64,000 nucleotides of DNA from an uncultured Acidobacteriota bacterium (lineage in GTDB: Bacteria > Acidobacteriota > CAIWXX01). The notes under the pieces were generated by a model. The model was given only the letters and a program-made list of their open reading frames with translations. It was not told the DNA's origin and did not search any database. The stretch covers positions 1 through 64,000 of the forward strand of contig CAIWXX010000165.1 in assembly GCA_903916735.1 (NCBI GenBank), read 5' to 3'. A program made the position numbers and the translations under genes. Below are positions 4,155-23,965 of this stretch, one piece after another; within the stretch, counting starts at the first letter, position 1, and every line of letters begins with the position of its first letter.

Positions 4155-4562
4155 TAGTGTCCTCCTTGTTTTGACATGATTGTTATTTGAATTGATCTGG
4201 AATTTCTGAGAGATGCGCGAAATGGGCACAGACGATTTCGTGTTGCAGGATGAATTAAAAGGAAAAAGAGCCGTCAGATTTCACCCCCCCGAAGAAATCC
4301 TACAGTTTGGATAAAAGTATCCAGGATGAGTGAAAAAAAGTCAAGGGGGTGTCGCTGCCAGAACGCCATCATCCGGCTATCTGTGATGGTTGAACGGAAA
4401 TTGTTTCTATGGTGTTGAAGTTGAACTACTACGATTGTAGTAAAAATATTACTCACATATGACCATGCATGGCTGTGCCGGCTACTTTTAATCCATGTAC
4501 AAGAATGACCTCCTCAGTGGATTCATGATCGGCAGCCTCTTTGAGCCTTTCTCGAAGAAGCC
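4155..4562. other. Divergent intergenic region with a short palindrome
   Basis: These 408 bases lie between the beta-helix gene and the transposase-like remnant. I see no credible gene. A perfect inverted repeat TACTAC-GATT-GTAGTA (4427-4442) could be an operator or small hairpin. The AAGGAGG site for the beta-helix gene lies at its left end. No convincing -35/-10 pair was found. Confidence 0.4.
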
Positions 4563-4895: not shown

Positions 4896-5182
4896 GTGAG
4901 ATCGAATCAGTAAGGAAGGGCAAGGGGACGATCTTTTTACGGAAGGAAGTCTGCAAGGGCTGTTCATTCTGCATTGATTTCTGCCCGACCCACTGTCTGG
5001 AATTCTCGATTGAATTCAACCAAAAGGGATATCATTTCCCATTGCTTGCCAGACCTCTTGACTGTACAGGTTGTGATCTGTGTGGCCTCTACTGCCCTGA
5101 TTTCGCGATTTTCGGGGTCAAGATCAAGGATCTGGAGAAACGCCGGACTTCGCCGGAACCACTGATTCCCGCCAAGGGATAG
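4892..5182 (+). CDS. korD: 2-oxoacid:ferredoxin oxidoreductase, ferredoxin-type delta subunit
   Basis: This 96-residue 2[4Fe-4S] ferredoxin-like subunit carries two classical clusters, CKGCSFCIDFCP near residue 29 and CTGCDLCGLYCP near residue 64. These pass electrons between the thiamine-diphosphate site of the oxidoreductase and soluble ferredoxin. A GGAAGGGGG element precedes the ATG. Cytoplasmic. It is the first of four kor subunits in the order D-A-B-C, separated from korA by 48 bases. The partner subunits look most like the 2-oxoglutarate (Kor) class, but a branched-chain (Vor) specificity cannot be excluded. Confidence 0.88.
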   Translation: MSEIESVRKGKGTIFLRKEVCKGCSFCIDFCPTHCLEFSIEFNQKGYHFPLLARPLDCTGCDLCGLYCPDFAIFGVKIKDLEKRRTSPEPLIPAKG

Positions 5183-5230
5183 GAATCCGGGAAGCAGAAT
5201 ACATCAACACGCAGAACGAGGGAGGACGCT

Positions 5231-9928: not shown

Positions 9929-11524
9929 CTATTTCAAGCGCTTAAAAACAACACAAGTTTTATCCTGATATTCCGTCTTCCAGTCAGGATCAGCTGCCAT
10001 CGCTATTCGCAACGGCTGTTCCTGTGAGACCAAAGCCCATTGAATCTGATATCGCGCAAACACGCTTTTCCAACTTTCGCTGCCGTTCACATGATCAGGA
10101 TTGCCGATGAGATCCATATACTGCGTCGTAAATTTCTGCCCATAGAAATCCAATCTGCCATCAACAAAGACTTTTATGTGTGGATAGAACTCATAAATCA
10201 AGAATCCGCCCGCCCCCCACTCATTGAATCCATTGCCTTCCGGCATATGAGATCGTAAAAAAGGTATGGCGCCCGTCGGAAACAGGGATGGTTCAAAATT
10301 GAAGTTCATCAATTGAGCTGTTCCGAGGCGGCCGCCGTTGAGAGCTGCAATCCAAAGAAGTGCGCCGACGGCGATGGCGAAAAAGTGTCCTTTGAAGGCA
10401 TGTTCAATCGCGACAACCCGTTCGATGTGCGCAATCACCCGCCTACTGAGATCGAGGAATCGAGGAAGACGATTGAGAAGATCACCGAGTGGTTGTTTCA
10501 CCCCGTCCAGCAAGCGGGCGATAATCGGCGTGCAGATCAGGAACATGACAGGAATATTCCGCGCCGAAATCAACCCCAATGCCGACCATGATGCAAGCAC
10601 GGTGCACTCTTCAAGTGTCGGACGGTGGAGCGAGTACCTCAGCAAGAAGATCAGCATGACGAGCAAAAAGAGAAATGGCTGGAATCCAGTGATCTGGAAA
10701 GTCGGCGAATGGAGCTCGTTATAGGGGTTGATATGATGAACCGCTCTAAAATATCGGAAGAGATAGATGTACATTCCAAAACCATATGGATTTAAAAGCG
10801 TTGCAATTAATCCGGCGATACTCACTGATGTCATGGTCTTGAGCAGCCGTTTTTCGGTTTCATGCTGTGATGGAATGGCCGTCAAGAATCGCAAGAGAGC
10901 ACATCCCAGGAATGTGAGGAGCAGGATGCACCCTGCAATGAACCCTGCATGCAAATTCACCCAGAGAAGCATGAGCGGCGGCAAGAGCCAAACCTGACGC
11001 ATCTGGATTTCTCCGCGGGTGAACCGATCCAACATGCGGAAGAAGATTATGGCAAAAAGGTATGAGACGGGATGAGGGCGTGCGGCCCAATGAAAACCGC
11101 TGCCGGCAACAACGAAAAGCATGAGCGACATGGAAAACACAAATGAATAACCGTCGCGCCTGAGAAAACGATAGAGTAGGGTGTAGCTTGAGGCAATGAC
11201 GAACATGATCATCAGAGTCATACCGTTCAAGCCGGCCAGGCGATCAAAGAGCGCCATGATGACTTCTGTTCCCCATTCATAAGCCACCCACCAGGACTCC
11301 GGCATTGTGAATGAGAAGATGTCCTTGTGGGGAATCGTGTGGTGTTCGATCATGTACTGGCCCGCTCGTATGTGCCACCCGGTATCTCCATCGCGGACGA
11401 AATAGCCCTTTGCTGAACCGAACATCATCGCCAGCAACAGCGCGATGAAAAGCACATCGGCCGTTGAGGGCAAGATCCACATCAGAGACGTATTGAGATG
11501 TTGTGTCTTGGAATCACATTTCAT
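9929..11524 (-). CDS. Polytopic membrane protein, GT-C-like architecture
   Basis: 531 residues with about ten predicted membrane helices. After the first helix comes RDGDTGWHIRAGQYMIEHH and an aromatic IFSFTMPESWWVAYEWG segment, which resembles the first extracytoplasmic loop of GT-C-fold glycosyltransferases (acidic residue, aromatic cluster). The C-terminal ~110 residues form a soluble domain containing GAGGFLIYEFYPHIKVFVDGR and the YQIQWALV stretch. I know this combination from uncharacterised membrane proteins of several phyla, but no enzyme activity is established for it. The start at 11524 has no strong ribosome binding site. The gene points away from the Tad operon, with 76 bases between. 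Confidence 0.7.
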   Translation of the reverse strand: MKCDSKTQHLNTSLMWILPSTADVLFIALLLAMMFGSAKGYFVRDGDTGWHIRAGQYMIEHHTIPHKDIFSFTMPESWWVAYEWGTEVIMALFDRLAGLNGMTLMIMFVIASSYTLLYRFLRRDGYSFVFSMSLMLFVVAGSGFHWAARPHPVSYLFAIIFFRMLDRFTRGEIQMRQVWLLPPLMLLWVNLHAGFIAGCILLLTFLGCALLRFLTAIPSQHETEKRLLKTMTSVSIAGLIATLLNPYGFGMYIYLFRYFRAVHHINPYNELHSPTFQITGFQPFLFLLVMLIFLLRYSLHRPTLEECTVLASWSALGLISARNIPVMFLICTPIIARLLDGVKQPLGDLLNRLPRFLDLSRRVIAHIERVVAIEHAFKGHFFAIAVGALLWIAALNGGRLGTAQLMNFNFEPSLFPTGAIPFLRSHMPEGNGFNEWGAGGFLIYEFYPHIKVFVDGRLDFYGQKFTTQYMDLIGNPDHVNGSESWKSVFARYQIQWALVSQEQPLRIAMAADPDWKTEYQDKTCVVFKRLK

Positions 11525-11538
11525 GGTGCTATTCTAGC

Positions 11539-11568
11539 TTGACTTTGATCGACTTCCGACAGTATATT
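11539..11568 (+). promoter_or_regulatory. Promoter of the Tad-like operon
   Basis: TTGACT (11539-11544), an 18-bp spacer and TATATT (11563-11568), matching sigma-70-type consensus at 5/6 in each box. It lies 33 bases ahead of the first possible start of the first prepilin gene. Confidence 0.6.
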
Positions 11569-11600
11569 TTACGAGCATCATTTCACTCAGGCATATAGCA

Positions 11601-11870
11601 ATGAACGCAGCAATCGCATTTTGCAAACTCTGGAAAGGCAATCCGTTATCATCAATGCGTTCATTTCTCACATCGATCCATGGCTGGGGTTATGTCGCCG
11701 GCCCGGACCGCATTCGCCCCATGTCTCAGAAAGGGCAGGCACTCATCGAATATCTTCTCCTTATGAGCCTGTTTACGATTTTGCTGGCGGCGGCTTTCGT
11801 TAAGTTTCAGGGCCTTCTCCCCGGCTGGTTCAACAACTTTGTCAATGGCGCAAAAGGCCCAACTGTCTAA
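11601..11870 (+). CDS. Flp-type prepilin 1
   Basis: From the ATG at 11601 this is 89 residues. The internal ATG at 11721 would give a 49-residue product closer to the usual Flp size. Neither start has a strong ribosome binding site, so the start is open. The mature part is clear: a prepilin peptidase site KG|QALIEYLLL with glutamate at +5 and tyrosine at +6 (Gly45/Glu50 in the long form), then one hydrophobic helix (YLLLMSLFTILLAAAFV) and a short tail. The EY pair and the tiny size are Flp hallmarks. The protein would be the major or a minor subunit of a Tad pilus, processed at the inner membrane. It is the first gene behind the promoter at 11539; 264 bases separate it from the second prepilin. 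Confidence 0.78.
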   Translation: MNAAIAFCKLWKGNPLSSMRSFLTSIHGWGYVAGPDRIRPMSQKGQALIEYLLLMSLFTILLAAAFVKFQGLLPGWFNNFVNGAKGPTV

Positions 11871-12019
11871 AGCGCAGATACATTAAAGTCATGCCAAAGA
11901 TCTTGAAATGAAAAAGGCGAAAAATAGAAAGTTAATAGCCAATCCAGCGCTTCCATCGATGATTTCAAATCTTGTTTCTCCTTTAGGGCAGTTTTGCCGT
12001 ATCCCTACTCCTTCGCCGC

Positions 12020-12037
12020 AAAGGGTGTCTCCCTTTT
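12020..12037 (+). terminator. Weak hairpin with T-run between prepilins 1 and 2
   Basis: AAAGGG (12020-12025), a 5-nt loop, then CCCTTTT (12031-12037). The stem is only 6 bp. It could trim readthrough so that prepilin 1 is made in excess over downstream genes, as is common in pilus operons, but it is weak. Confidence 0.3.
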
Positions 12038-12134
12038 CCATTTTGTTATTTACTATGTACTTGAGATGGGATTGCTGATACATGATCTCGACTATGCGGT
12101 GGCCATATTATTTAAACGCTAAATGGAGGTGGTT

Positions 12135-12371
12135 ATGAACGACCTTTTTCTCCGTGCATGGCTTGGTGCGATAAATTTACGGGATCGGGTCTTTCGGAGG
12201 AGGAATGAAGAAGGGGCGGTAGCTCTTGAGTATCTTCTCATTATCGGGCTGGTCGTGATTCTTCTGTTCGCGATCCTCTGGCTGTTTATGGATCCGATCA
12301 AGAACATGGTCAACAACGCGCTCAAGAAGATCGACAACTGGCTCACATCAACCAACAACGCGGCTCCTTAG
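12135..12371 (+). CDS. Flp-type prepilin 2
   Basis: 78 residues. The start at 12135 is chosen because GGAGGTGG lies 7-8 bases upstream; an in-frame ATG at 12123 precedes that element. A basic leader (RVFRRRNEEG) ends at a peptidase site EEG|AVALEYLLII with Glu at +5 and Tyr at +6, followed by a 20-residue hydrophobic helix (LLIIGLVVILLFAILWLFM) and a polar tail (NNALKKIDNWLTS). The leader is longer than in prepilin 1. Prepilin 3 starts five bases after its stop, so the two are probably coupled. Confidence 0.85.
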   Translation: MNDLFLRAWLGAINLRDRVFRRRNEEGAVALEYLLIIGLVVILLFAILWLFMDPIKNMVNNALKKIDNWLTSTNNAAP

Positions 12372-12376
12372 CCGTC

Positions 12377-12553
12377 ATGCGCTGGCGGAAGCTGCCGGAC
12401 CCCGTCGCCGGCGAAAAGGGCGCGACGACGATCGAGTACATCATGATTCTCTCGCTGTTTTCCGTCCCTTTGAGCCTCATCGTGGGCACAGCTCTCAGCA
12501 AGATTCTTCGTGAGTTGATCACGGTGATCGTCGAGCATTTCACGCGAGGGTAG
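12377..12553 (+). CDS. Flp-type prepilin 3 (58 residues)
   Basis: A short gene that is easy to overlook. Its protein starts MRWRKLPDPVAGEKG and is cut at EKG|ATTIEYIMILS, again with Glu at +5 and Tyr at +6, followed by a hydrophobic helix (IMILSLFSVPLSLIVGTAL) and the tail RELITVIVEHFTRG. There is no independent ribosome binding site; translation probably reinitiates after prepilin 2. It differs from prepilins 1 and 2 outside the cleavage motif, so the three are not recent duplicates. Role: an Flp-family pilin or minor pilin in the Tad-like system. Confidence 0.82.
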   Translation: MRWRKLPDPVAGEKGATTIEYIMILSLFSVPLSLIVGTALSKILRELITVIVEHFTRG

Positions 12554-12558
12554 AGCCT

Positions 12559-13125
12559 ATGAAAGCGGGGAAGCAGGCTGAATCAGGACAGATCATTATC
12601 GAGACTATTCTGCTGTTGATGGTACTGCTCGCTGTGATCTTCGCTTTCGTCGAGGTCTGTTTGATCGCCGTTGATAAACATGAAGTCGATCGAATCGCTC
12701 GTTATGCCGCTCGCGCATGGTCCGTGCGGCTAAAATGGGATGCTCAAACGGCTCTCTCATCCGCCACAATACTTCGTACATCTTTCGCCGCAAGCAAGTT
12801 CGACCAACTGCAAAAGCAGATTGGACAGGTGAGAGAGACCAGCAGGGTGGATCCCACGGATGGGACTGGGCGGAGTGGACTCGAGTTCCGAACCTTTATT
12901 CCTGTATTGATGCCGTTCACAGAGGAATTCGTCGGCTGGCAGGTCGATCCCCCGGATGGTAATTTGCTGACGGATCCCAGTTGGGCGCCTATCACGCCGG
13001 CCGAAATTCAAGCTCTCACGTCGTTCGGAGTGCGGAGGGTCGTTCGATCGATAACTTTCATTCCAATCGACAGAGAGCCGACGGAAGACCCTTCACAGTA
13101 TGATAATGACTTCAATGATGATTGA
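12559..13125 (+). CDS. TadE-like pseudopilin
   Basis: 188 residues. The N-terminus ESG|QIIIETILLLMVLL has a prepilin peptidase site with Glu at +5, and the following hydrophobic helix continues to an ARYAARAW segment typical of TadE/TadF proteins. The remainder is a small periplasmic domain without recognisable motif. TadE-type proteins are processed by the prepilin peptidase and are needed for Flp pilus assembly. It starts 5 bases after prepilin 3 and ends 6 bases before the cpaB-like gene. Confidence 0.78.
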   Translation: MKAGKQAESGQIIIETILLLMVLLAVIFAFVEVCLIAVDKHEVDRIARYAARAWSVRLKWDAQTALSSATILRTSFAASKFDQLQKQIGQVRETSRVDPTDGTGRSGLEFRTFIPVLMPFTEEFVGWQVDPPDGNLLTDPSWAPITPAEIQALTSFGVRRVVRSITFIPIDREPTEDPSQYDNDFNDD

Positions 13126-13131
13126 GGACAT

Positions 13132-13941
13132 ATGAGACAAGGAATGCGTTGGTTAGTAGCGATTCTTCTGGGATCTTTTGCGGGACTCATCGCTGTCATG
13201 CAGCTCATCCAGAAAGAATCGGAAGTGAAACAGGGACAGAATCCCGTGGAAGTCTACCGTGCCAAAGCGATTATCAAGCCTGGAATCACGATTACGGCTG
13301 AAATGGTCGAGAAAGCACCGATTCCAAACGCCTTTGTTCAGCCCGGGGCCTTACAAACGCCGGACAAAGTCATCGGCCAAGTCACACTTTTGGAGATCGC
13401 GCCCAAAGAGCAGATTGTGGCATCGAAGCTGGCTCCGAGCCTCATGAGACCACTCGCGGAAGTCGTCCCACATGGCATGCGAGGCGTGACGCTTGAAACT
13501 GGACGCGGCCTTGCCGGGCTTGTGCAGGTCGGAGACCGTGTCGATCTGCTGGGAATCTATCAATTTCAGCGTTCAGGATCGTCGCTACTATCAAGCGTGC
13601 GCATGCTTTTCCAGAATGTTCAGGTCATCGCGGTGGGCCAATTCACCGTACCGAATGTGCTCGGTCGTACAAAAAAGTTGTTCGAGGCCGTTGGTGAGAG
13701 CGGCCCGGGAACCGGCGGAACACTGACACTGGCGATGACGCCACCTGACGCTCAGCGTCTCATTCTTGCGCAAGATCTGGGCAGGATCACGATTATCATG
13801 CGTGGAAATGACGAGAGTCCGCAGCCGCTTCAATTCGAAGCCGTCACGGGCGACGATCTACTTGGTTCTCAATACCCCGTCTGGACGCCGGCCACAAAGG
13901 AGTTCAATTTGATGAGCCGTACAGCCCGGGAACAGCATTAA
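13132..13941 (+). CDS. cpaB: Flp pilus assembly protein CpaB/RcpC
   Basis: 269 residues. A single N-terminal membrane helix (WLVAILLGSFAGLIAVMQL) is followed by an SAF-type domain (YRAKAIIKPGITITAEMV, VIGQVTLLEIAPKEQIVASKL) and the RcpC core (RGVTLETGRGLAGLVQVGDRVDLLG), then a C-terminal part with LGRITIIMRGNDES. CpaB is a periplasmic protein anchored in the inner membrane that works with the secretin of Tad systems. No secretin gene is found in this window, so its partner must be elsewhere or replaced. Tightly packed within the operon (6 bases from tadE, 29 from the TadG-like gene). Confidence 0.88.
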   Translation: MRQGMRWLVAILLGSFAGLIAVMQLIQKESEVKQGQNPVEVYRAKAIIKPGITITAEMVEKAPIPNAFVQPGALQTPDKVIGQVTLLEIAPKEQIVASKLAPSLMRPLAEVVPHGMRGVTLETGRGLAGLVQVGDRVDLLGIYQFQRSGSSLLSSVRMLFQNVQVIAVGQFTVPNVLGRTKKLFEAVGESGPGTGGTLTLAMTPPDAQRLILAQDLGRITIIMRGNDESPQPLQFEAVTGDDLLGSQYPVWTPATKEFNLMSRTAREQH

Positions 13942-13970
13942 AGAGAGTCAGCGGAAGAAGAGGTGTCGGC

Positions 13971-15080
13971 GTGCACTGGAACGATCGTCATATGGATGGA
14001 TTAAGAACCAGTGTGACCTCCATCAAGAGGGGCGAATCGGGTCAGATCATCCTCTTCTTCGTCCTCGTCCTCTTCACATTGCTCAGCTTTGCGGCGCTGG
14101 TGATCAGTGTCGGCCAGATGCTCGCGCGCAAAGCGCTCGCCCAGCATCTCGCAGACATCGGCGCATTTGCAGGAGCGAGTCAACAGGCCAGCTCGCTCAA
14201 CTACATCACGGATTTGGATCGAGTCATGTTCAAATTCCTGAGAGCAACGGCATTTGTCACTCGAGCCGGTCCGTTCGATCTGTTTCGCGAGGCAGATAGT
14301 ATTGTTGAACCGGCGCTCGAAGCAGAGCAATACGGGGTTTTCGATCCGCTCAGGGGAGCCGCTGAAGCCGAACTTCTTCAAGCTCCCTCGAAGGCGCGAG
14401 ATCTTGCGACAAGTGTCACTCAGCAGAACATCGCTTCCCTCTTCAAATATGAAAACGCCAACGACTTCACCTATCGAAACCCCGACTTCGATCTGAATCC
14501 CTCTAAATTGACTCAGCTTTTCGAACCGACAGATCCCTATGAACGCTCGGTTTATTGGGGTTATTACACAACCTGCATCCCCTGCCCGGTTCCCTACTGC
14601 GATTGTGCTCCGACGACATGGGCTGATCACTGCATCCAGTATTACGAGTATATGGGCGGAGACCTCCAAAGCTATTCTTTCACGACATACTTCACTCGGA
14701 AATACCGACAGGACTCGCAGCATGAAGATCATTTCTACTGGGAGGTCACGATTCCATCGACTAAGTCGATTCTCGGGATTTTTGGGGATCTTCCTCCTAT
14801 TACAGCCACTGCCAAAGCCAAGCCGTACGGCGGCTACCTGGGAGATGAACCTGAACAAGATGATATCCCGAATGCCTACCTTTACCTGCTTTTGGACTGC
14901 ACATGCATTTTCGGGCAGGAGAATAATATCTATGACAATTTTTACACATACAAAGTAGCGCACGATTTTCAATCGACTTACAAAGCCAAGCTCGATGCCC
15001 TAAATTCCATCGCCGACTCCCAATATCTCGAAGATCTACGAAGCCGTTTCGGAAACGAGTTAGGCTCGGTGATACATTGA
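13971..15080 (+). CDS. TadG-like / TadE-type pilus-associated protein
   Basis: 369 residues starting at GTG with AGAGG upstream; an ATG lies seven codons in. The leader ends ESG|QIILFFVLVLFTLLSFAALVI, a TadG-like N-terminus. The +5 residue is Leu rather than Glu, so cleavage by the prepilin peptidase is doubtful. After the helix comes GQMLARKALAQHLADIGAFAGA, the standard TadG/TadE continuation in which the first surface helix is Ala-rich. The rest is extracytoplasmic and includes a cysteine-rich patch (TTCIPCPVPYCDCAP, near residues 201-215), unusual for this family, which may form disulfides. No von Willebrand factor domain is apparent. Its stop lies at the start of the next TadE-like gene. 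Confidence 0.72.
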   Translation: MHWNDRHMDGLRTSVTSIKRGESGQIILFFVLVLFTLLSFAALVISVGQMLARKALAQHLADIGAFAGASQQASSLNYITDLDRVMFKFLRATAFVTRAGPFDLFREADSIVEPALEAEQYGVFDPLRGAAEAELLQAPSKARDLATSVTQQNIASLFKYENANDFTYRNPDFDLNPSKLTQLFEPTDPYERSVYWGYYTTCIPCPVPYCDCAPTTWADHCIQYYEYMGGDLQSYSFTTYFTRKYRQDSQHEDHFYWEVTIPSTKSILGIFGDLPPITATAKAKPYGGYLGDEPEQDDIPNAYLYLLLDCTCIFGQENNIYDNFYTYKVAHDFQSTYKAKLDALNSIADSQYLEDLRSRFGNELGSVIH

Positions 15081-15082
15081 TA

Positions 15083-15586
15083 ATGACACAGTGGGCGGCC
15101 GCGAAATTCAATGACCGGACGACACGCGAGCTCCGCGGCAACGAACGCGGGGCCACGGCAATCGAGTTGCTCTTTTGCGGCATTTTTTTGCTAATATTGA
15201 TAGCCTTCATTGTCCAACAGGTACATTTTGCGCTGGACTTCACGGAAGCGGCTCTCGATTTACGTTATGATGTGTTGAAGCAATCCCGAACGGATGAGTT
15301 GTCTCACCAGCCTCGCATCATTCCTCCTCTCAGCAAGACCATTAAGTTGCGTTCGAGTCCCTTCCTGAGCTCGTATATTGGGCAGGATCAGAGCGGCATC
15401 GAAAAGACGATTAGCATGACTGCAGCCGGCGGGACTCAAAAGGAAGATGCTCCAGGATTGGTAGAAGTTGCTTACGAACTGGCGGACAATCCAGGGGCGA
15501 CTAATGCTTGGCAACTAGCCATCGCAGGCTTACCCAAGATAGCTGCTTTCGCCTACCTCGCGAGCGGTATTGGATACCGCTTTTAA
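15083..15586 (+). CDS. Second TadE-like pseudopilin
   Basis: 167 residues. ATG at 15083 chosen; a TTG two codons earlier overlaps the previous stop. Leader LRGNERG|ATAIELLFCGIF has the prepilin site with Glu at +5, then a hydrophobic helix (FLLILIAFIVQQVHFAL). The rest is a small periplasmic domain without known motif. Together with the gene at 12559 it makes a TadE/TadF-like pair flanking CpaB and the TadG-like protein. The next gene begins 9 bases after its stop. Confidence 0.78.
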   Translation: MTQWAAAKFNDRTTRELRGNERGATAIELLFCGIFLLILIAFIVQQVHFALDFTEAALDLRYDVLKQSRTDELSHQPRIIPPLSKTIKLRSSPFLSSYIGQDQSGIEKTISMTAAGGTQKEDAPGLVEVAYELADNPGATNAWQLAIAGLPKIAAFAYLASGIGYRF

Positions 15587-15594
15587 GGGTCATC

Positions 15595-17712
15595 ATGGCA
15601 GCTCACGTTATCGGAGTCTTCAGTCAAAAGGGGGGAGTTGGTCGTACACTCATCGCCACGAACCTCGCGCTGACTCTGAAAGAGCGCCTTAAAAAAGAAA
15701 CCATGCTGATCGATTGCAAGGCGCCTTATGCCGGCGACATTCTCCTTGCGCTCGGCGAGCGGAGCGCTCCTAGTCTCATCGACCTTGAAAGCGAGATCAG
15801 TGCTGGAAAAGATGCATGGCTCGGCCGGGTCGCAAGACACGCACAGAATGGGATTTATCTTTTGCCGCTATGCCTGCAGCCTGAACAGCTTTCCCGCCTG
15901 ACTCCGGAGATCCTCGGCGATTCCATCCGATTGGCGTCCGAAGGACTCGATGCCGTCATTATCGATATGGATCTGAGTGATTCCGAGCGCCTAGCAGCGA
16001 CTCTTGATCTATGCACCGAGTTGCTGCTCGTCACGACTCCGGATCTGCTCTGCCTTAATCAAAACTTGAAGGCCATCGACACTCTTCAGACGCACTATTT
16101 TCCGCGCGACAGCATTCTGCTCGTGATCAACCAATACCGGGAGAGCGCGCCGATCAAGTTGAATCTCATCGAGCGTAACCTGAATCTCCAAGCTGCCGCT
16201 GTGTTGCCATTTGACTCGGAAGCGGCTGAGAGCTCGTTGAATCGAGGTGAGCCGCTGGTGACGACTAATCCGAAACACGCCATCTGCCGGGCGTTGTTCA
16301 ATCTCGGGGAATCCATTGCGGCGAGGCCGATTGTGCAGCGAACAGCCGTCGCCAAGAGCTCCAAGACACCTCGCCAGGCAGCAGCGTCGAGCCCGAGCAC
16401 GCCGTTACGGATCTCTTTCGGTCTGCCGATTGCGCAACTCATCCAGCTCAAGCAGAAAATTCACAAGCAGGTCATCGAAGAAATGAACCTGAAACAGATG
16501 GACTATGAGATCCTGTCAAACCCTGATAAGCGCATCGATTTGTACCGTTCCACCGAACTGGTCATCTCACGACTCCTCGATAAGGAAGCGGCGGCCGTCA
16601 CGAATCGTGATCATCGAGTCGTGCTGGGACGGGAAATTTTAAATGAAGCCCTGGGGCTCGGCCCCATCGAATACCTCCTGTCCGATGAGACGGTCACGGA
16701 AATCATGGTCAATGGATCTCATCACATCTACATTGAGCGCAAGGGGAAGATCGAGCTCACACCATATTACTTCACCGGTGAACCGCAGCTACGAGGAATC
16801 ATTGAGCGAATTGTGGTGCAGGTCGGGCGCAGGATCGATGAGAAGAGTCCCATGGTCGACGCGCGCCTCGCGGACGGCTCGCGCGTGAATGCGATCATTC
16901 CTCCACTGGCGCTGGACGGTTCATCGCTGACAATCCGCAAATTTGCCAAAGTACCTCTCAGGGTTGAGTCGCTATTGAAGTACGGATCGCTCAACCAGCA
17001 GATGTCGCGCTTTTTGAACGCGTGTGTGATGGCCCGCAAGAACGTGGTCATCTCCGGAGGCACTGGAAGCGGCAAGACGACTCTGCTCAACATCATGAGC
17101 AGTTTCATCCCCGCCGATGAACGCATCCTGACGATCGAAGATTCCGCGGAACTGCAACTGCCGCAGGAGCATGTCGTGCGTCTCGAGACTCGACCTCCCA
17201 ACATCGAAGGACAAGGTGCCGTGACAATCCGCGATCTCGTTCGCAACTCGTTGCGCATGCGGCCCGATCGGATCGTGGTCGGCGAATGCCGCGGCGCCGA
17301 AGCACTTGACATGTTACAGGCCATGAACACCGGACATGATGGAAGTCTCACGACCGTCCATGCCAATACGCCGCGAGATGCCATTTCCCGACTGGAAACG
17401 ATGTGCCTCATGGCTGGGCTGGATCTGCCGGCGCGCGCCATCCGCACGCAAATCGCATCGGCTGTCCAAATTATCGTTCAAGAGGCGCGACTCAACGATG
17501 GCTCGCGAAAGGTCACTCACATCAGCGAAGTTTGCGGGATGCAGGGAGATATCATCACCATGCAGGATATATTCCTGTTTCGTCAGGATCGCGTTCTGTC
17601 GGATGGGCGGGTCGAGGGCGTCTTCGAGCCGACTGGATATATTCCGACATTCATCGACACACTGCGGCCGAGAGGAATCGATCTCCCGCGTGAAGTGTTT
17701 TTGAGGCAATGA
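15595..17712 (+). CDS. TadZ/CpaE-TadA/CpaF fusion ATPase
   Basis: 705 residues in one chain. ATG at 15595 with AAGGG upstream is used; the frame stays open further upstream but overlaps tadE. Residues 1-260: a MinD/ParA-like domain as in TadZ/CpaE, with deviant Walker A QKGGVGRT (Lys12 kept, the usual second Lys is Arg17) and VIIDMDLSDSE as the Walker B region. Residues ~290-705: a CpaF/TadA secretion ATPase, with an N-terminal helical region, YRSTELVISRLLD, SDETVTEIMVNG, Walker A GGTGSGKTT (488-496), the Asp-box region ILTIEDSAEL, Walker B RPDRIVVGECRG and the His-box region GHDGSLTTVHAN. In most Tad systems these are two proteins: TadZ places the machine at a pole, TadA powers pilus assembly. 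Here both are covalently joined. TadB follows with a 4-base overlap. Confidence 0.93.
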   Translation: MAAHVIGVFSQKGGVGRTLIATNLALTLKERLKKETMLIDCKAPYAGDILLALGERSAPSLIDLESEISAGKDAWLGRVARHAQNGIYLLPLCLQPEQLSRLTPEILGDSIRLASEGLDAVIIDMDLSDSERLAATLDLCTELLLVTTPDLLCLNQNLKAIDTLQTHYFPRDSILLVINQYRESAPIKLNLIERNLNLQAAAVLPFDSEAAESSLNRGEPLVTTNPKHAICRALFNLGESIAARPIVQRTAVAKSSKTPRQAAASSPSTPLRISFGLPIAQLIQLKQKIHKQVIEEMNLKQMDYEILSNPDKRIDLYRSTELVISRLLDKEAAAVTNRDHRVVLGREILNEALGLGPIEYLLSDETVTEIMVNGSHHIYIERKGKIELTPYYFTGEPQLRGIIERIVVQVGRRIDEKSPMVDARLADGSRVNAIIPPLALDGSSLTIRKFAKVPLRVESLLKYGSLNQQMSRFLNACVMARKNVVISGGTGSGKTTLLNIMSSFIPADERILTIEDSAELQLPQEHVVRLETRPPNIEGQGAVTIRDLVRNSLRMRPDRIVVGECRGAEALDMLQAMNTGHDGSLTTVHANTPRDAISRLETMCLMAGLDLPARAIRTQIASAVQIIVQEARLNDGSRKVTHISEVCGMQGDIITMQDIFLFRQDRVLSDGRVEGVFEPTGYIPTFIDTLRPRGIDLPREVFLRQ

Positions 17713-18566
17713 TGACAACAAGAGATTTCATTGTCGTAGGCATTGTGGCATTCTCATTCGGCGCTATCGGATTCCTTCTCTACGACTGGATCGAAATTAG
17801 ATTTCTGCGCTATCTGGACAAGTATGGCGAACAGGTTCGCGAGACCCTTGACGCCATCTTCATTCAGGTCTCCGAACAGCAGGCGCGACGCATCCTGATC
17901 GTCAGCATCATCGGACTTGGGGCTATTGCCTACATTATCTCCTTCAATTTCCTAGTGCTTTTCTATGCGGCCGCCATCGGCATGTTCCTCCCGGTCATGC
18001 TACTCCGATATGCCAAGAAACGCCGGCTGGAGAAGTTCGACCGTCAGATGATGGACATTGTGAATACCGTCAGCAATGCCTTGAAGAGTGGACTGAATTT
18101 GCAGCAGGCGTTCGAATTCCTCGTCAATGAAATGAAACCCCCGATATCGGAGGAATTTGACCTAGTGCTGAAGGAAGTCAGGCTCGGCGCTCAAATTGAG
18201 GATGCACTGGAAAATCTGATCAAGCGAATTCCGCTGCCGGAGCTAGAAATGATGGTCATTGCCATTCAAACACTGCGCCGCACGGGTGGCAACATGATCG
18301 AAACCTTCGATGTGATCGGCCAGGTCATCAAAGAACGGCGCAAGGTCGAAGGAAAAATCAAGGCTCTCACTGCGGAGGGGCTCACTCAAGGGTACATCAT
18401 GTGCGCAATGCCGGCGGTCCTCGGCACCGTCATCTATCTTTTGGATCCCGGATTCATACGGCCCCTCTTCTCTACATTTCTTGGGTGGCTTATGATGAGT
18501 CTCATGGTGGGGCTTATCGCCGTCGGCTGGATTGTGATAAAAAAGATGGTATCGATCGAGGTTTAA
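17709..18566 (+). CDS. tadB: Tad inner-membrane platform protein TadB
   Basis: 285 residues of the T2SSF (GspF-like) family. Two hydrophobic stretches at the N-terminal third (FIVVGIVAFSFGAIGFLLY, ILIVSIIGLGAIAYIISF), a cytoplasmic GspF domain (DRQMMDIVNTVSNALKSG, LQQAFEFLVNEM, LRRTGGNMIETFDVI), and two C-terminal helices. TadB and TadC form the platform that the TadA ATPase acts on. The ATG overlaps the end of the fused ATPase (ATGATGA), suggesting coupled translation in correct ratio. Inner membrane. Confidence 0.92.
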   Translation: MMTTRDFIVVGIVAFSFGAIGFLLYDWIEIRFLRYLDKYGEQVRETLDAIFIQVSEQQARRILIVSIIGLGAIAYIISFNFLVLFYAAAIGMFLPVMLLRYAKKRRLEKFDRQMMDIVNTVSNALKSGLNLQQAFEFLVNEMKPPISEEFDLVLKEVRLGAQIEDALENLIKRIPLPELEMMVIAIQTLRRTGGNMIETFDVIGQVIKERRKVEGKIKALTAEGLTQGYIMCAMPAVLGTVIYLLDPGFIRPLFSTFLGWLMMSLMVGLIAVGWIVIKKMVSIEV

Positions 18567-18567
18567 G

Positions 18568-19425
18568 ATGATACACCTAGGTGTTTTCTTTTTGGCAGCA
18601 GCGGCCGTGGCGGTCGCCGTCTATGGTCTGATACCCGACCAGGAGACACTTGCCGCGATCCGCTCGCGGCAACAGCGAACGCGTGAGATCAAATCGCCCA
18701 TTCTGCGAATTTTCGGCCCACTTCTGACGGCGCTTTCGCCGACCATGTCGAAGTTGGGATCCGAGCGATATCGCAACAAGCTATCTGAGCTCTTGAAATC
18801 CGCTGGGCTTTCCGGCGCCATTGAGATCGAAGAGTTGCTGGCGCTGAAATTCATTTTGAGCGCCGCGCTGGTATTCTTCTGCCTCGTCTATCGGATCCCA
18901 CTCATTTTTTCGCTTATGATCGCGGGCTTCGGCTTCTTTTTCCCTGAGCTCTGGCTTCGGGATCAGGCGAAAGAAAGAAAAGTGAAAATCCGGCGGGATC
19001 TGCCTTTCATGCTCGATCTGCTGACGCTGCTGGTCGAAGCCGGACTCGAGTTCACCGCCGCACTCACGCTCATCACCGACAAATTGAAAGAGGGAGCCCT
19101 TCGACAGGAGCTGCGGATGATGTTGCGAGAATTCCGAGTTGGCGCGCCACGCGTCGAAGCGCTACAAAATCTCGCCGACCGCGTGAATATTCCCGAAATC
19201 AACTCCCTGACGGCGGCTCTTATTCAAGCCTCGGTGATGGGCACGTCCATCGGGAATGTGCTTCGTGTACAGTCCGAGATCATGCGAGCCGAACGCTTTA
19301 CAACCGCCGAAAAAAAGGGAGCCGAAGCTGCCCAGAAAATCATGGTTCCACTTATCCTTTTCATCCTCCCGGCAACCTTGATTGTGATTCTCGGCCCTGT
19401 CCTTATTAAATACCTGTTACACTGA
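18568..19425 (+). CDS. tadC: Tad inner-membrane platform protein TadC
   Basis: 285 residues, the second T2SSF-family platform subunit, starting one base after tadB ends. It shows RRDLPFMLDLLTLLVEAGLEF and TAALTLITDKLKEG near residues 148-180, GAPRVEALQNLADRVNIPE, then TTAEKKGAEAAQKIMVPLI and the terminal helix LILFILPATLIVILGPVL, all typical TadC marks. An N-terminal helix and a central pair (LKFILSAALVFFCLVYRIP) complete the membrane part. Its stop overlaps the next start (TGATG). Confidence 0.92.
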   Translation: MIHLGVFFLAAAAVAVAVYGLIPDQETLAAIRSRQQRTREIKSPILRIFGPLLTALSPTMSKLGSERYRNKLSELLKSAGLSGAIEIEELLALKFILSAALVFFCLVYRIPLIFSLMIAGFGFFFPELWLRDQAKERKVKIRRDLPFMLDLLTLLVEAGLEFTAALTLITDKLKEGALRQELRMMLREFRVGAPRVEALQNLADRVNIPEINSLTAALIQASVMGTSIGNVLRVQSEIMRAERFTTAEKKGAEAAQKIMVPLILFILPATLIVILGPVLIKYLLH

Positions 19426-20558
19426 TGCTGGCACAACTTGAAGTAACGATCGAAGATGTCACCGAGACGATTCCTGTTCTCAAGCCGATATCGATCATCG
19501 GAAAGCGCGAGGGTTGCGATATCGTGCTCAAGCACAAGAGCGTCTCTTCGCAGCATGCGAAGCTCATCGTCACCTACAACTCGGTGACGATTGAAGATCT
19601 TCAGAGCACAAATGGTACGATCATTGGAGGGTTACGGATACAGGCACCGACTGAGCTGAAGGATGGCGAAGAGCTGCAATTCGGCGGCGTCGTCGTGAAG
19701 CTTCGCATTCTCAAACAGGAAGAAAAATCGGCTCAGAGGATGCCTCTATCACAACGACGGCGTCCGAATGAACACAGCGCCAAACAGTCTGAGCTTTTGC
19801 GAGTCCTCGGTGATGGCCTTCCGTTCAAAGAACGGCTCGCGCTCCTCAACAGAGAATTTTCCACGGGTATCTTGAAGCCGAGCTTCCATTGGAAAACTCG
19901 CTTCTTTCTCATCTTGGCGGCTGCGCTCCTTGGTACGGGCCTCTTCCTCATTATCGTTTCTTCCCTCATTGCAGGGAATCGCATCGAACCGGGTTTCCTC
20001 ATGTTGCTCCATGAATTCACGGCTGAAAACCTCCACTCATACGCCCAGCAAGGCGGCGAATTCAGTGCGCGAAGCCTCCATCTGGACCAGCATCCTGAAA
20101 TCATCGGCTACTATCTGCTTGATGATATCGGCCGGCAATTGTTCCCTCGCCGAGATGATGCCAATCCGATAGAGATCAAAGGTTTTTCGGCATCCACCTT
20201 CAACGGCCCTGACATGTTGCCGGGACCGAACGGGAGCTGGTATCTCGCGGAGGTCATTATTCTTGATAACACGCGTAAGGGAATCGCGTGTTTACAATTC
20301 GATGAAAAGCCATCGGAGCGCGGGATCGGACTCTCACCTTTGTTCCTGGCTCTCGCATTGATTTTTCTCATGGTGAGCGGATATCTATTCGTGGGTGCTG
20401 CCGGGCGCATCATCACAAAACCCATAGCACAGATCATCATTGAGATCGACGAGGCTCGCATGGGTCAACGCACTGAATTTTCTCATTTTAAGCATTTCCC
20501 AGAGCTGGATCGTCTCGCTCGTATGCTCGAAAAGATCCTTCTCAAATCTGAGGAATAA
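19425..20558 (+). CDS. FHA-domain membrane protein with periplasmic sensor and HAMP-like segment
   Basis: 377 residues. Residues ~20-100 form an FHA domain: ISIIGKREGCDIVLKHKSVSSQHAKL, then DLQSTNGTIIGG, with the phosphothreonine-contacting Gly-Arg (GKR), Ser-xx-His and Asn positions kept. A membrane helix (FFLILAAALLGTGLFLIIV, ~residue 150) leads to a ~120-residue extracytoplasmic region; a second helix (LFLALALIFLMVSGYLFVG, ~305) is followed by ITKPIAQIIIEIDEARMGQR, which looks like a HAMP linker. The protein then ends without any output domain. The layout (cytoplasmic FHA, periplasmic sensor, HAMP) resembles a receptor whose output is the N-terminal FHA, which could recruit a phosphorylated partner to the pilus machine. 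No Ser/Thr kinase gene occurs in the window. Function inferred. Confidence 0.75.
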   Translation: MLAQLEVTIEDVTETIPVLKPISIIGKREGCDIVLKHKSVSSQHAKLIVTYNSVTIEDLQSTNGTIIGGLRIQAPTELKDGEELQFGGVVVKLRILKQEEKSAQRMPLSQRRRPNEHSAKQSELLRVLGDGLPFKERLALLNREFSTGILKPSFHWKTRFFLILAAALLGTGLFLIIVSSLIAGNRIEPGFLMLLHEFTAENLHSYAQQGGEFSARSLHLDQHPEIIGYYLLDDIGRQLFPRRDDANPIEIKGFSASTFNGPDMLPGPNGSWYLAEVIILDNTRKGIACLQFDEKPSERGIGLSPLFLALALIFLMVSGYLFVGAAGRIITKPIAQIIIEIDEARMGQRTEFSHFKHFPELDRLARMLEKILLKSEE

Positions 20559-20560
20559 TA

Positions 20561-21883
20561 ATGCCGGCCAAGCTGAAAGTCCAAAAAAACGGCCTTGTTG
20601 TCGATGAATATGAAATCAAGAAGCAGGAGATTCTGATCGGCAAGGGCGAACACTGTGACATAGTGCTCAACTACCCCGGCATCGGCCGTGAGATGGCCCG
20701 GTTGACCGCAGAGAAGGATGGATTCTACATTGCCGACGTCAGCGTCCAAGGAGTGTTTATCGACAACCAGAGGATCACGAGACAGAGGGTCAATCCGGGT
20801 CAGGAGATTAATTGCGGGGCAGTCCAACTAGTGCTTGTCGAAGAAGACGGGTTCCGGGATCAGGCCTCCTCGGCAACGATGCTCTGGGAAGCCGCCGGCT
20901 TTGCTGTTCCACCAATCACGGCATATTTGGTTTCAAAGGGAAAACCAGAAGAGGCGCATGTCATTTCAACCGAAGAGTTTGTCATCGGCAGGGGCGTGAA
21001 AGATTGTCAATTGCCGGTTGTTGATAATGCTGCCTCCAAGCGGCATGCACGAATTGCCCGTGCCGGAGAGAAGTTCCTGCTGGCGGACCTCAACAGCACA
21101 AACGGCACGTATCTCAATGCACAGAAAGTGACCGATGTGATCGAGCTCAAGGAAGGGGATGAAATCAGGATCGGGCATGCGGTGTTCATTTTTCGGAAGC
21201 AACTCGATTCGAGTCAGAAGCCCGTATCGCCGCCTCCCGCGAACCTGATCGACATGGAGCAGATCGTCAAGCAGACGGATGACATGCTACCGAAAGCGGC
21301 TCTGCCTGAGACTCCTGCAAAGGCCATCGCTTCGGACAAGAAGCGAATGAGGCTTCTCATCGGGGCGGTCGCCGTGGCCGTGCTTTTTCTCATTCTCATC
21401 ATCGCTCTCAAGCCGCATGGTCCGAAACTCGATCCGGCCCGCGTTTCCGCGATCGAATCGTTGTTCCGCGACGGCAAGCTTGATGATGCTCGCCGGCAAA
21501 TTGATGAGCTGATGAAAACCTTTCCCAGCGACCAGAGACTGAAGTTGCTTGTCGGCCGAATCGAGGACGCGAAAAAGGCCGAAATCTCCGATCGGATCAG
21601 CTCGCTCATCGATCAAGCCAAAGAACGCGAAAATGCATTAGACATCCTCGCCGCCACGGATTTGTGGGCTCAGGTCCTTCAGGCAACCCCCGACAACGCC
21701 GAAATTCAGAAGAAATTCTGCGCCGCTGCCTATCGTATTGCCCTTGTTTACGAGGGCGAGCTTCCTGAGTCGGATAAGGTTAATGCCAGTCGGTATCTCG
21801 AACTGATCCAGAAGCTGGTCAAAAAAGAAAGCGCGTCGGATTATGATACCGCAATGAAGCTTCTCGATACTTTGAAGAAGTAG
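20561..21883 (+). CDS. Double-FHA membrane protein with TPR-like tail
   Basis: 440 residues. First FHA-like domain (~residues 18-90: EILIGKGEHCDIVLNYPGI, IADVSVQGVFIDNQRI) is degenerate, with the Arg/Ser/His set mostly lost (GKGE, GREMA). The second (~residues 137-215: FVIGRGVKDCQLPVVDNAAS, KRHARI, DLNSTNGTYLNAQ) keeps the canonical GRG, SxRH and NG. A proline-rich linker follows, then one membrane helix (LLIGAVAVAVLFLILIIAL, ~residue 264) and a ~150-residue helical tail, partly TPR-like (LFRDGKLDDARRQIDELMK). The tail would lie in the periplasm. It starts 2 bases after the first FHA gene and may stand in for TadD, which is missing here. Function inferred. Confidence 0.75.
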   Translation: MPAKLKVQKNGLVVDEYEIKKQEILIGKGEHCDIVLNYPGIGREMARLTAEKDGFYIADVSVQGVFIDNQRITRQRVNPGQEINCGAVQLVLVEEDGFRDQASSATMLWEAAGFAVPPITAYLVSKGKPEEAHVISTEEFVIGRGVKDCQLPVVDNAASKRHARIARAGEKFLLADLNSTNGTYLNAQKVTDVIELKEGDEIRIGHAVFIFRKQLDSSQKPVSPPPANLIDMEQIVKQTDDMLPKAALPETPAKAIASDKKRMRLLIGAVAVAVLFLILIIALKPHGPKLDPARVSAIESLFRDGKLDDARRQIDELMKTFPSDQRLKLLVGRIEDAKKAEISDRISSLIDQAKERENALDILAATDLWAQVLQATPDNAEIQKKFCAAAYRIALVYEGELPESDKVNASRYLELIQKLVKKESASDYDTAMKLLDTLKK

Positions 21884-21893
21884 CCGACAGCAA

Positions 21894-23678
21894 ATGAACG
21901 AACGGGAATTCGGGATCAAGCTCCTGGATAGCTTGTTGAGAGCGAGGCGCTTGAGTGAGGCGGAAGCGCAGAAGGTAAGGGCACGTATAGAACAGATCCC
22001 TGATTTCGAATCCGCCCTCTATGCATGCACGAATCTGCAGGCTGAGGATCTTCGGCCGGCGCTTGAAGAGGTTTCGGGAACTCGTGCGGTCGACCCTTCG
22101 CTCATGGCTATCGACCCGGACTTCATGGCGAATGTGCTGCAATTGATCCCGGTTCACATCTTGTTACGAGAATCGGCATTTCCGATACGCCATGAAGGCA
22201 ACGTCTTGAGCGTTGCCATCTTCAATCCACTCGACCGGCAACGGCTCGATCGCCTTGAAGGTGTCAGCGGTCTGCAGGTGGTGGGGGTCGCCTGTCACAA
22301 GGACGGCGTCATCGGCGCGCACGAAAAACAATGTGATTTATCGGGCCTTCCGGAGGGGTGGCAATCGCATTCAATCGAAGAGCTCTATTCAGAGGTTATT
22401 AGTGAACGCGAGTCGGTTTCGCTTGAAGAGCTCCAGGAACAGGCTTTGCTCTGCATTAATGTTAACTATGATGCGCTCAGCAAAGGAGGCAAAGCGCTAG
22501 AAATATTTCTGCGCAGGTACCAGTTGATCAGGTATTTCCATCAGACGCTCGTACGGATGGTTCGAGCCGGCTGCAGCGACATTCATATTGAGCCGCAAGA
22601 AGCAAGTCTCCGAATTCGGACTCGTATTGATGGCGTCTTACGGATGGTGGCCGTGCTGCCGGCGAGTTTCGGAAAGCCGCTCCTCTACCGGGTGCAAGCC
22701 ATGAGCGGACTTGAAACAGGACCGTGCGCGGAACCAAAGGATGGCCATATCGGATATAACCTGGTGCCGGGGCAAGCCGTTGAGTTTCGTGTGTCGATAC
22801 TCCCGTCGATTTTCGGAGAGAAAATCGTGCTGCGTGCGCTGCGGCGGAACACGAAGGGCGTGCCGATTGCCGGCTTTGGCATGGACCTGGAAGATGAGCG
22901 CTATGTTCAATCCGTCATCCATGCTCCCAACGGACTTGTGCTCGTGACCGGTCCAACCGGCAGCGGTAAGACATCGACGCTCTATTCAGTCCTTGACGAG
23001 ATCAACGGGAACGGTGTCAACATCGTCACGGCGGAGGATCCGGTGGAGCGTGTGATCGCCGGGACAACGCAAGTACTGTGCGGCGAGGAGAGCAAGATCA
23101 CTTTCGCAGATGCGCTGAGATCGTTTCTACGGCAGGATCCTGATATCGTGATGGTGGGTGAGATTCGAGATGCGGAGACGTGCGACATTGCATTGAAGGC
23201 GGCGCTCACGGGGCACCTTGTGCTGAGTACGCTGCACACCAATGATGCGCCGTCGGCGATTCTACGACTACTGAATCTCGGGATGGAGCCTTTCACCATT
23301 GCCGCAGCTCTGCGGATGATAGTCGCTCAACGTCTCGTGCGAATGCTTTGTAAGAACTGTGCAACGAATGCGCCTTTATCAGAAGAGGCACGGAAGGAGA
23401 TACTTGCGGCCGAATTGAAACCCCCGCAGGAGTTGCCAACGGCACGTGGATGTAGTTCCTGCGGTGGCACCGGCTACTCAGGGCGCACGGGTGTTTTCGA
23501 GGTGCTGCGGGTCGACGATGCGATCCGGGATGCAATAGGCCGTCGCGCCGCTCTGTCTGAGATCCGCGATCTCGCCATTCGCGCAGGCATGCGTCCGCTT
23601 CGCCGGCGCGGTCTGCAGCTCGTCCTGGCCGGTGTTACCTCCATCGATGAAGTCTGCCGCCACACCCTTGCACAATAG
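21894..23678 (+). CDS. GspE/PilB-family secretion or pilus ATPase
   Basis: 594 residues. An N-terminal MshEN/GspE-N-like region (~1-170, LLDSLLRARRLSEAEAQKV) is followed by the hexameric ATPase core: SDIHIEPQEASLRIRTRIDG near residue 225, Walker A GPTGSGKTS (353-361), the Asp box near TAEDPVER, Walker B QDPDIVMVGEIRD, the His-box region GHLVLSTLHTND. A tetracysteine zinc module (CKNC, then CSSC) lies near residues 484-525. These are hallmarks of the type II secretion/type IV pilus extension branch, not of the TadA branch. It closes the Tad-like operon, 10 bases after the double-FHA gene. No GspF, pilin or secretin of the T2SS/T4P type is adjacent, so its role here is open. Confidence 0.88.
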   Translation: MNEREFGIKLLDSLLRARRLSEAEAQKVRARIEQIPDFESALYACTNLQAEDLRPALEEVSGTRAVDPSLMAIDPDFMANVLQLIPVHILLRESAFPIRHEGNVLSVAIFNPLDRQRLDRLEGVSGLQVVGVACHKDGVIGAHEKQCDLSGLPEGWQSHSIEELYSEVISERESVSLEELQEQALLCINVNYDALSKGGKALEIFLRRYQLIRYFHQTLVRMVRAGCSDIHIEPQEASLRIRTRIDGVLRMVAVLPASFGKPLLYRVQAMSGLETGPCAEPKDGHIGYNLVPGQAVEFRVSILPSIFGEKIVLRALRRNTKGVPIAGFGMDLEDERYVQSVIHAPNGLVLVTGPTGSGKTSTLYSVLDEINGNGVNIVTAEDPVERVIAGTTQVLCGEESKITFADALRSFLRQDPDIVMVGEIRDAETCDIALKAALTGHLVLSTLHTNDAPSAILRLLNLGMEPFTIAAALRMIVAQRLVRMLCKNCATNAPLSEEARKEILAAELKPPQELPTARGCSSCGGTGYSGRTGVFEVLRVDDAIRDAIGRRAALSEIRDLAIRAGMRPLRRRGLQLVLAGVTSIDEVCRHTLAQ

Positions 23679-23866: not shown

Positions 23867-23965
23867 TCAAGACGGTTGAGCCCATGAAATCATATTGGCA
23901 TCCGCTTTTCTTTAGATCCAGCCGAGGAATGATCTCTTCGATTGGTCGGTTCCGGAGATAAAAAA

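Follow-up and report, generated by a model that had tools for sequence, protein, structure and literature searches.

The 64,000-nucleotide stretch of Acidobacteriota DNA analysed here (the window) contains a 13-gene Tad pilus operon in which two FHA-domain proteins and a second, PilB-like ATPase belong to one system with the Tad core, sharing a conserved gene order and a common descent of both TadA and the ATPase with the operons of relatives. No Tad-type secretin was found in the genome, and a gene 2 kb upstream of the operon encodes a protein that joins secretin N-domains to a TonB-type domain. We consider it reasonably probable that the operon encodes a Tad (type IVc) variant of diderm Acidobacteriota that is controlled through phosphothreonine, has two motors and is rebuilt at its outer-membrane end.

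The window opens contig C165 of genome G000 (Acidobacteriota, 5.37 Mb, 183 contigs, 98.7% complete); other G numbers denote Acidobacteriota genomes, L numbers denote loci, and "named" loci are those from named records. The named Acidobacteriota locus L048 (Candidatus Sulfopaludibacter) matches L179 of G299, a genome assigned to the phylum of G000, without a difference across 5067 bases. The operon occupies positions 11601-23678 of the + strand, where all thirteen genes listed in a preliminary description of this DNA were located:

11601..11870, +, Flp-like prepilin A (flpA), with a GQALIEY motif and a G001 homologue (7e-11); the real start is probably a later ATG, at residue 41
12123..12371, +, Flp-like prepilin B (flpB), Flp_Fap 5e-4, below cut-off
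12377..12553, +, Flp-like prepilin C (flpC), Flp_Fap 0.0094, below cut-off
12559..13125, +, TadE-like minor pilin, PF07811 5.1e-7, above cut-off
13132..13941, +, CpaB/RcpC alignment protein, PF16976 3.7e-18, with NCBIfam TIGR03177 above cut-off
13971..15080, +, TadG-like protein, PF13400 1.1e-4, narrowly above cut-off
15077..15586, +, second TadE/TadF-like protein, PF16964 0.027, below cut-off, conserved in G001
15508..17712, +, TadZ-TadA (CpaE-CpaF) fusion in a single open reading frame (ORF), CbiA 2.1e-8 and T2SSE 1.4e-64; the real start is probably the ATG at 15595
17709..18566, +, TadB platform protein, PF00482 2.8e-19
18568..19425, +, TadC platform protein, PF00482 5.3e-16
19425..20558, +, FHA1, PF00498 5.9e-18
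20561..21883, +, FHA2, PF00498 8.3e-30, in two stretches
21894..23678, +, PilB-like second ATPase (MshEN and T2SSE), PF00437 4.3e-112, MshEN 1.8e-10

With the TadZ-TadA start taken as 15595, the gaps from flpB to the PilB-like ATPase gene range from -4 to 29 bases, and flpA and flpB are separated by 252 bases. Pfam cut-offs were passed by the first TadE-like protein, CpaB, TadG (barely), TadZ-TadA, TadB, TadC, both FHA proteins and the ATPase. Below them stayed the three prepilins and the second TadE-like protein, for which TadF was the best match; these assignments are based on the conserved order in G001 and on sequence features, either a G-x4-E-Y motif or a hydrophobic helix. TadZ is present as the MinD-like N-terminal half of the fusion, while the TadA half matched TIGR03819 at 2.3e-101, below the cut-off of that model, with ATPase motifs that appeared intact by eye. 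TadB and TadC are two half-size platform proteins of the same family, and neither a GspF/PilC-type platform nor a GspD/PilQ secretin was found in the operon.

The nearest relative, G001, carries the same 13 genes in the same order up to the point where its contig stops inside the ATPase gene, an order that is thereby common to two genera. Within a set of 60 relatives G001 alone comes from the same family, and the other 58 share the phylum only. Protein searches were extended to 396 genomes of the phylum, scoring per genome two candidates for TadZ-TadA, three for the ATPase and five for the pilN-TonB protein described below, and the resulting counts are lower bounds. A TadA match at 1e-120 was obtained in at least 85 of the 396 genomes, and at least 10 of these (11 genes) span both the TadZ and the TadA half in one ORF. 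The operon group comprises nine of these ten genomes, together with G105, whose TadZ-TadA gene is cut by a contig end, and the named locus L021. The tenth genome, G126 (L193), was excluded; its TadZ-TadA fusion is preceded by an FHA gene, and a true secretin follows TadC. This genome gave no match to the PilB-like ATPase at 1e-105 and fell outside the TadA clade. In that tree (55 rows, full domains, none dropped) the rows of this operon type, 12 of 12, formed a single clade with support 99/95. A search of nine genomes in the class of G075, another member, added none.

Five further genomes (G053, G149, G259, G331, G219) share the order TadG-CpaB-pilN protein-TadZA-TadB-TadC-FHAa-FHAb-FHAc-ATPase, with two extra ORFs between TadB and TadC in G149. 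Contig ends interrupt the operon in G001, G075, G105, L021 and G373. The FHA genes of G373 were not seen because its contig stops after TadB; its ATPase gene lies on another contig, with a PP2C gene after it. TadB was found in all 11 loci checked. The FHA and second ATPase genes are thus kept in the same order in relatives, supporting the proposal of the preliminary description that they belong to one variant Tad system; a chance association of neighbours was rejected on the basis of their recurrence in other Acidobacteriota families and of the grouping of the ATPases in a tree (below). The fusion of TadZ and TadA is a different matter. It had been presented as unusual and was considered as the distinguishing oddity of the operon, an idea abandoned when both halves were found in one ORF in 19 of the best-scoring 80 of 586 confirmed named loci (a count not usable as a rate), with fusions in Bdellovibrionota, Omnitrophota, Myxococcota, Elusimicrobiota and other groups.

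The last gene of the operon had been described as encoding a GspE/PilB-type ATPase. By model score, the nearest NCBIfam family is PilB (TIGR02538, 1.5e-141) and GspE comes next (4.4e-129), both below their cut-offs. Alignment showed intact Walker motifs and zinc cysteines. Matches at 4e-139 or better were obtained in at least 7 of the 396 genomes (G000, G219, G053, G149, G373, G259, G331), all of which carry this kind of operon, with the next best match at 8e-113. The ATPase gene directly follows the last FHA gene in eight of the nine TadZ-TadA loci of this type whose contig continues (G000, G001, G053, G149, G259, G331, G219, G105). In a tree of these ATPases, which has no row for G001 (83 residues at a contig end), the eight Tad-linked rows grouped together with support 94/97. 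Only this cohesion was used, because the links among the Tad-linked, PilB, PilT and GspE groups form an open fork and several distant paralogues of G000 have very long branches. Because its gene is kept together with the operon, the second ATPase is likely to be a working part of the machine. A hybrid with a type II secretion system (T2SS) or type IV pilus, as had been suggested, was not demonstrated; PilB is nearest by score, but the tree leaves the sister group open and the operon has no GspF/PilC-type platform.

FHA1 has one FHA domain and two hydrophobic segments (residues 157-185 and 298-331) flanking a likely periplasmic region, with a short tail that looks HAMP-like by eye. FHA2 has two FHA domains, a hydrophobic segment (261-290) and a TPR-like part (TPR_14 7e-4, below cut-off). 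FHA domains bind phosphothreonine through the consensus S..H and N-G. By eye, this motif is kept in FHA1 and in the second FHA domain of FHA2 and is degenerate in the first. The FHA proteins of some relatives have a weak C-terminal PAS match. In fetched neighbourhoods, Ser/Thr kinase and/or PP2C phosphatase genes lie near the operon in six of seven loci of the sister lineages (G053, G149, G259, G331, G219, G373, L021): both in G053, G149, G331, G373 and L021, and PP2C only in G219. Pfam was used to check these genes for G053, G149, G331 and G219, as well as the G373 PP2C and the G096 kinase; those of L021 and the kinases of G373 were assigned by similarity. A Ser/Thr kinase is also encoded elsewhere in G000, on contig C45. 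It is plausible, from the canonical FHA motifs and the kinase and phosphatase genes near relatives' operons, that phosphothreonine recognition controls the machine of this operon.

Five secretins were identified in G000 with PF00263, one PilQ and four TPR-secretins, all on contigs other than that of the operon. The genome has a single Peptidase_A24 prepilin peptidase, on contig C110, also away from the operon. The statement that neither gene type accompanies the operon is therefore borne out. In other systems the prepilin peptidase may lie in a separate locus or be borrowed (PMC6668835). The five secretins and six TonB-dependent receptor barrels are outer-membrane markers, and because they are present we regard G000 as diderm and rejected the idea that it is monoderm.

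To distinguish Tad secretins from other types, hidden Markov models (HMMs) of the N-half and C-half were trained on 46 true Tad secretins with row lengths of 390-620 residues; the pilN loci (including L021 and L026) and the secretins of G000 were excluded from this set. An earlier, iterated secretin HMM was discarded; reduced proteins had been absorbed into its training set, so that they came to resemble secretins. With the C-half model, true secretins in G000, G001 and G053 scored between 4e-23 and 2e-52, and even PilQ was recovered at 1e-52. The N-half model found no RcpA N-half in any of the five secretins of G000 or the four of G001, and the whole-genome search that had been recommended for the secretin thus returned no Tad-type secretin in G000 as far as searched. 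The four TPR-secretins (L115, L116, L117, L118) have N-terminal TPRs; two show a C-terminal cohesin match and one is cut by a contig end, and one lies near a GspE-type ATPase gene and one near the gene for a very large Ser/Thr kinase with TPRs.

Other secretins of G000 could serve in trans. An ordinary Tad pilus with a borrowed pore, which could be the type IVa pilus secretin PilQ or one of the TPR-secretins, would leave the upstream pilN-TonB protein as an aligning adaptor only. The five secretins of the genome supply candidates for such a pore, and Caulobacter CpaI, a stand-alone protein with a predicted RcpA N-domain fold proposed to bridge CpaB and CpaC (PMC13170226), supplies a precedent for such an adaptor. 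Nevertheless, all five are encoded on other contigs, none has the RcpA N-half, and sister lineages encode a reduced secretin inside the operon itself, leaving this explanation doubtful in our view.

The pilN-TonB protein was absent from the preliminary description:

8702..9676, +, pilN-TonB protein P0017, 324 aa, 2 kb upstream of the operon

P0017 begins with a hydrophobic segment (residues 7-31, a signal peptide or anchor), followed by pil_N and BON-like N-domains, a Pro-rich spacer and a TonB_2/TolA-like C-terminal domain. TonB and TolA C-terminal domains reach outer-membrane partners. TonB_2 (PF13103, 3.1e-12) and TIGR01352 were matched above cut-off, pil_N below it (0.0022), and TolA structure 6s3w at 3.9e-4. 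With the models from true Tad secretins P0017 scored 1.6e-16 for the N-half and 1.7 for the C-half (276 positions), the latter no better than for reversed sequences, and no secretin barrel was detected with the C-half model. The RcpA/CpaC N-terminal domain family PF13629 matched G000 in a single place, positions 8804-9004 of the window, at 9.1e-4, below cut-off. A model of P0017 folded alone had a predicted local distance difference test score (pLDDT) of 44 and was not used.

Related proteins occur beside Tad genes in other genomes. G001 has a second TadZ-TadA gene (L134, C47) and two pilN-TonB genes in its genome, one of which lies directly upstream of that second TadZ-TadA gene, where an FHA2 gene is also found. 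In G075 a pilN protein is encoded between CpaB and TadZ-TadA. The proteins of G075 (L189:7437-8792, -) and G096 (L253:3-1040, +) join secretin N-domains to a third kind of C-terminal part, which has no Pfam match; in G096, FHA and Ser/Thr kinase genes come after it. On the simplest reading, P0017 would connect the machine in the inner membrane to some outer-membrane partner that is not a Tad secretin.

In the seven sister-lineage loci a protein encoded between CpaB and TadZA matched the N-half model at 2e-21 to 5e-30. With the C-half model these proteins gave values from 3e-8 to 0.76, and that of G259 gave no match. In a profile comparison, the C-halves of the seven proteins matched the secretin half over its positions 88-247 (96.7%, 3.8e-10; 0.2 and 0.3% for reversed controls), so that the first third of the secretin half is without a counterpart. 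PF00263 did not detect the reduced proteins of G053 and L021. A fold predicted for L021 from an alignment with 30 other sequences was confident in the N-part and middling in the C-part, and may lean towards the secretin fold because 29 of the 30 had been taken as full secretins. Its C-part superposed on secretins with Z from 8.7 (RcpA) to 10.0 (InvG complex) over approximately 117-139 residues at a root-mean-square deviation near 5-6, again for a model whose alignment is mostly secretins, while its N-part is matched at equal Z by unrelated Ig-like chains. In Foldseek, two PDB matches for the model reached E 0.001 or better; one is a secretin-like chain of a T2SS and the other belongs to a VirB9 complex. 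In a separate phylum, the Candidatus Auribacterota locus L026 has two FHA genes after TadC and a pilN protein (4017-5216, +) with a weak secretin half and no PF00263 match.

The reduced C-halves of the sister lineages and the C-terminal parts of the G000, G001, G075 and G096 proteins suggest a path from a full secretin to a reduced one in one branch, and to a TonB domain (G000, G001) or another domain (G075, G096) in the other, the direction of which is inferred. An alternative would dispense with the pore entirely: a short pseudopilus would stay within the periplasm and act as a piston, or as a mechanical linkage to an outer-membrane protein that the TonB domain holds, and would serve secretion, the sensing of contact or movement on surfaces. 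The pilN proteins of G000 and G001, with a TonB/TolA-type domain and no pore domain, are compatible with this idea, as are the likely periplasmic part of FHA1 and the combination of FHA and TonB-like parts in GltG of Myxococcus gliding (PMC3169522). We nevertheless judge it unlikely; a reduced secretin domain, predicted to fold like a secretin, persists in sister lineages, so that a pore may still serve there, and no gene for an outer-membrane partner was seen in the operon.

Several observations weigh against a phospho-controlled Tad variant with two motors and a rebuilt outer-membrane end. Homologues of the relatives' kinases and phosphatases are absent from the 64-kb window and from the G001 contig, and G259 has no clear kinase or PP2C gene near its operon, only weak PP2C-like fragments. 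FHA genes are also found after TadC where the Tad locus includes a full secretin (G013, L138), so FHA proteins alone are not tied to secretin loss. In L021 a kinase gene, not the ATPase gene, follows the second FHA gene; no Flp-like pilin genes were found in the G149 and G219 stretches; and G096 has pilN, FHA and Ser/Thr kinase genes with no TadZ-TadA in the sequence examined. Among the matches listed in the 396 genomes, full-length pilN-TonB proteins occur in G000 and G001 only (2/396), the remainder consisting of the TonB part alone, except in G075 and G096 (N-part only). PF13629 gave no match in G001 despite the pilN-TonB proteins of that genome, so absence by PF13629 is weak. The further pilN-TonB copy of G001 (L252, C78) lies among housekeeping-like genes, unlinked to Tad genes, and P0017 itself stands outside the operon, 2 kb away with a divergent gene in between. 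The last two points would also be expected if pilN-TonB were unrelated to the operon, and the Tad machine had lost its secretin and were decaying or inactive. This we regard as very unlikely: the motifs of the PilB-like ATPase are intact, as are those of TadA by eye, the 13-gene order is kept across two genera, the N-domains of P0017 match Tad secretins, and the other G001 copy adjoins a second TadZ-TadA gene and an FHA2 gene.

Returning to the favoured reading of a rebuilt Tad machine, we infer the following scheme for its phospho-control, the partner of the second motor, the docking of the N-domains and the route of a fibre, if any, across the outer membrane. The inner-membrane half would be complete, with three Flp-like pilins, TadE/F/G-like tip proteins, a CpaB ring, the TadZ-TadA motor and the TadB/C platform. 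FHA1 would sense in the periplasm and, with FHA2, read phosphothreonine marks that a Ser/Thr kinase adds and a PP2C phosphatase takes away, such that a signal switches assembly on, as in the kinase-phosphatase-FHA switch of the type VI secretion system (T6SS). The PilB-like ATPase would be either a dedicated assembly motor of this same machine or an opposing one, and would probably act on the TadB/C platform. The secretin would have lost its barrel and kept its periplasmic N-domains, which would still dock onto the CpaB ring; in Pseudomonas, a direct association of RcpA with RcpC, the CpaB orthologue, has been reported (PMC13170226). The Pro-rich spacer and TonB/TolA-type domain may then extend to an outer-membrane protein or to peptidoglycan, and a fibre would exit via the pore of another protein or push within the periplasm. 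We advance more tentatively, as a possibility, that Acidobacteriota have evolved a Tad-derived machine able to act across the outer membrane with no secretin. Shrinkage of the secretin would have come first, followed in the family of the window by its replacement with a TonB-type transducer on the docking domains, giving a two-ATPase pilus motor gated by Ser/Thr phosphorylation and coupled mechanically or energetically to an outer-membrane protein in place of a pore.

The remaining neighbours of the operon are less readily placed. The divergent gene between P0017 and flpA is:

9929..11524, - (divergent), polytopic membrane protein P0015, with homologues beside Tad loci; its place in the system is uncertain

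P0015 gave no Pfam, NCBIfam or PDB match. Its homologues recur beside Tad loci of several phyla (e.g. L007, L036, L049, L080, L140, L142, L143, L193), and judged by eye it is possibly a Tad-linked glycosyltransferase. A membrane histidine kinase of 1278 residues (23942-27778, +) starts 263 bases after the operon and was not counted as part of it. Further away, a large FG-GAP and right-handed beta-helix protein (1533-4229, -) is encoded upstream of a 2-oxoacid:ferredoxin oxidoreductase-like operon that begins at 5231.

No published description of this Tad variant was recognised in the literature searched, as far as its available text goes and with preprints outside its scope. Denise et al. (2019) proposed that secretin gain founded the bacterial Tad systems and linked secretin loss to monoderms (PMC6668835). 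Here, in a Tad lineage of diderms, the secretin is reduced in one branch and was not found in the other, with docking domains retained, a second motor and a likely phospho-switch. This makes testable how much of a secretin is needed, whether the docking domains have a role of their own and whether Tad machines fire on a signal, and the machine may show how pilus machines get rewired.

The operon shares with the classical Tad/Flp pilus TadA, TadB, TadC, CpaB, TadE/G and pilins that are Flp-like by motif, as well as, in relatives, the order CpaB-(secretin slot)-TadZ-TadA-TadB-TadC. It differs in having no full secretin, a second PilB-like ATPase and FHA proteins, with kinase and phosphatase genes in relatives; CpaF has been described as one bifunctional ATPase that drives both assembly and disassembly (PMC12019362). 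Caulobacter CpaI resembles P0017 in its predicted RcpA N-domain fold, the lack of a barrel and its proposed role as a bridge from CpaB to the outer-membrane end; unlike P0017, it acts beside a full CpaC (PMC13170226). P0017 has BON-like, Pro-rich and TonB parts in addition, and the search for a CpaC in G000 found none.

A C-terminal TonB/TolA domain behind a Pro-rich spacer is also found in TonB/TolA transducers and GltG, but P0017 differs from them in having secretin N-domains before the spacer; FHA2 matched the GltG model NF033760 only far below its cut-off. The T6SS threonine-phosphorylation pathway (PpkA-PppA-Fha) resembles the relatives' loci in placing a kinase, a PP2C phosphatase and FHA proteins beside an envelope machine, which here is a Tad machine, with no kinase or phosphatase homologue in the window.

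The link between FHA proteins and the T6SS is mentioned in the account of the Kil system, the Tad-like predation apparatus of Myxococcus xanthus (PMC8460266). In Kil an FHA domain lies within KilF, whereas the Pfam scan gave no FHA match in TadZ-TadA; KilC is a short secretin without N0, the reverse of the situation here, where the N-domains are kept and the barrel is absent; TadG is reported missing in Kil and is present here; and a PilB-like ATPase, present here, is not mentioned in the part of the Kil account available (PMC8460266). Kil nonetheless has in common with this operon the Tad core and more than one FHA protein, and a phospho-cascade triggered by contact has been suggested for it (PMC8460266). 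The FHA proteins of the present operon may best be read as a phosphothreonine switch of the kind suggested for Kil.

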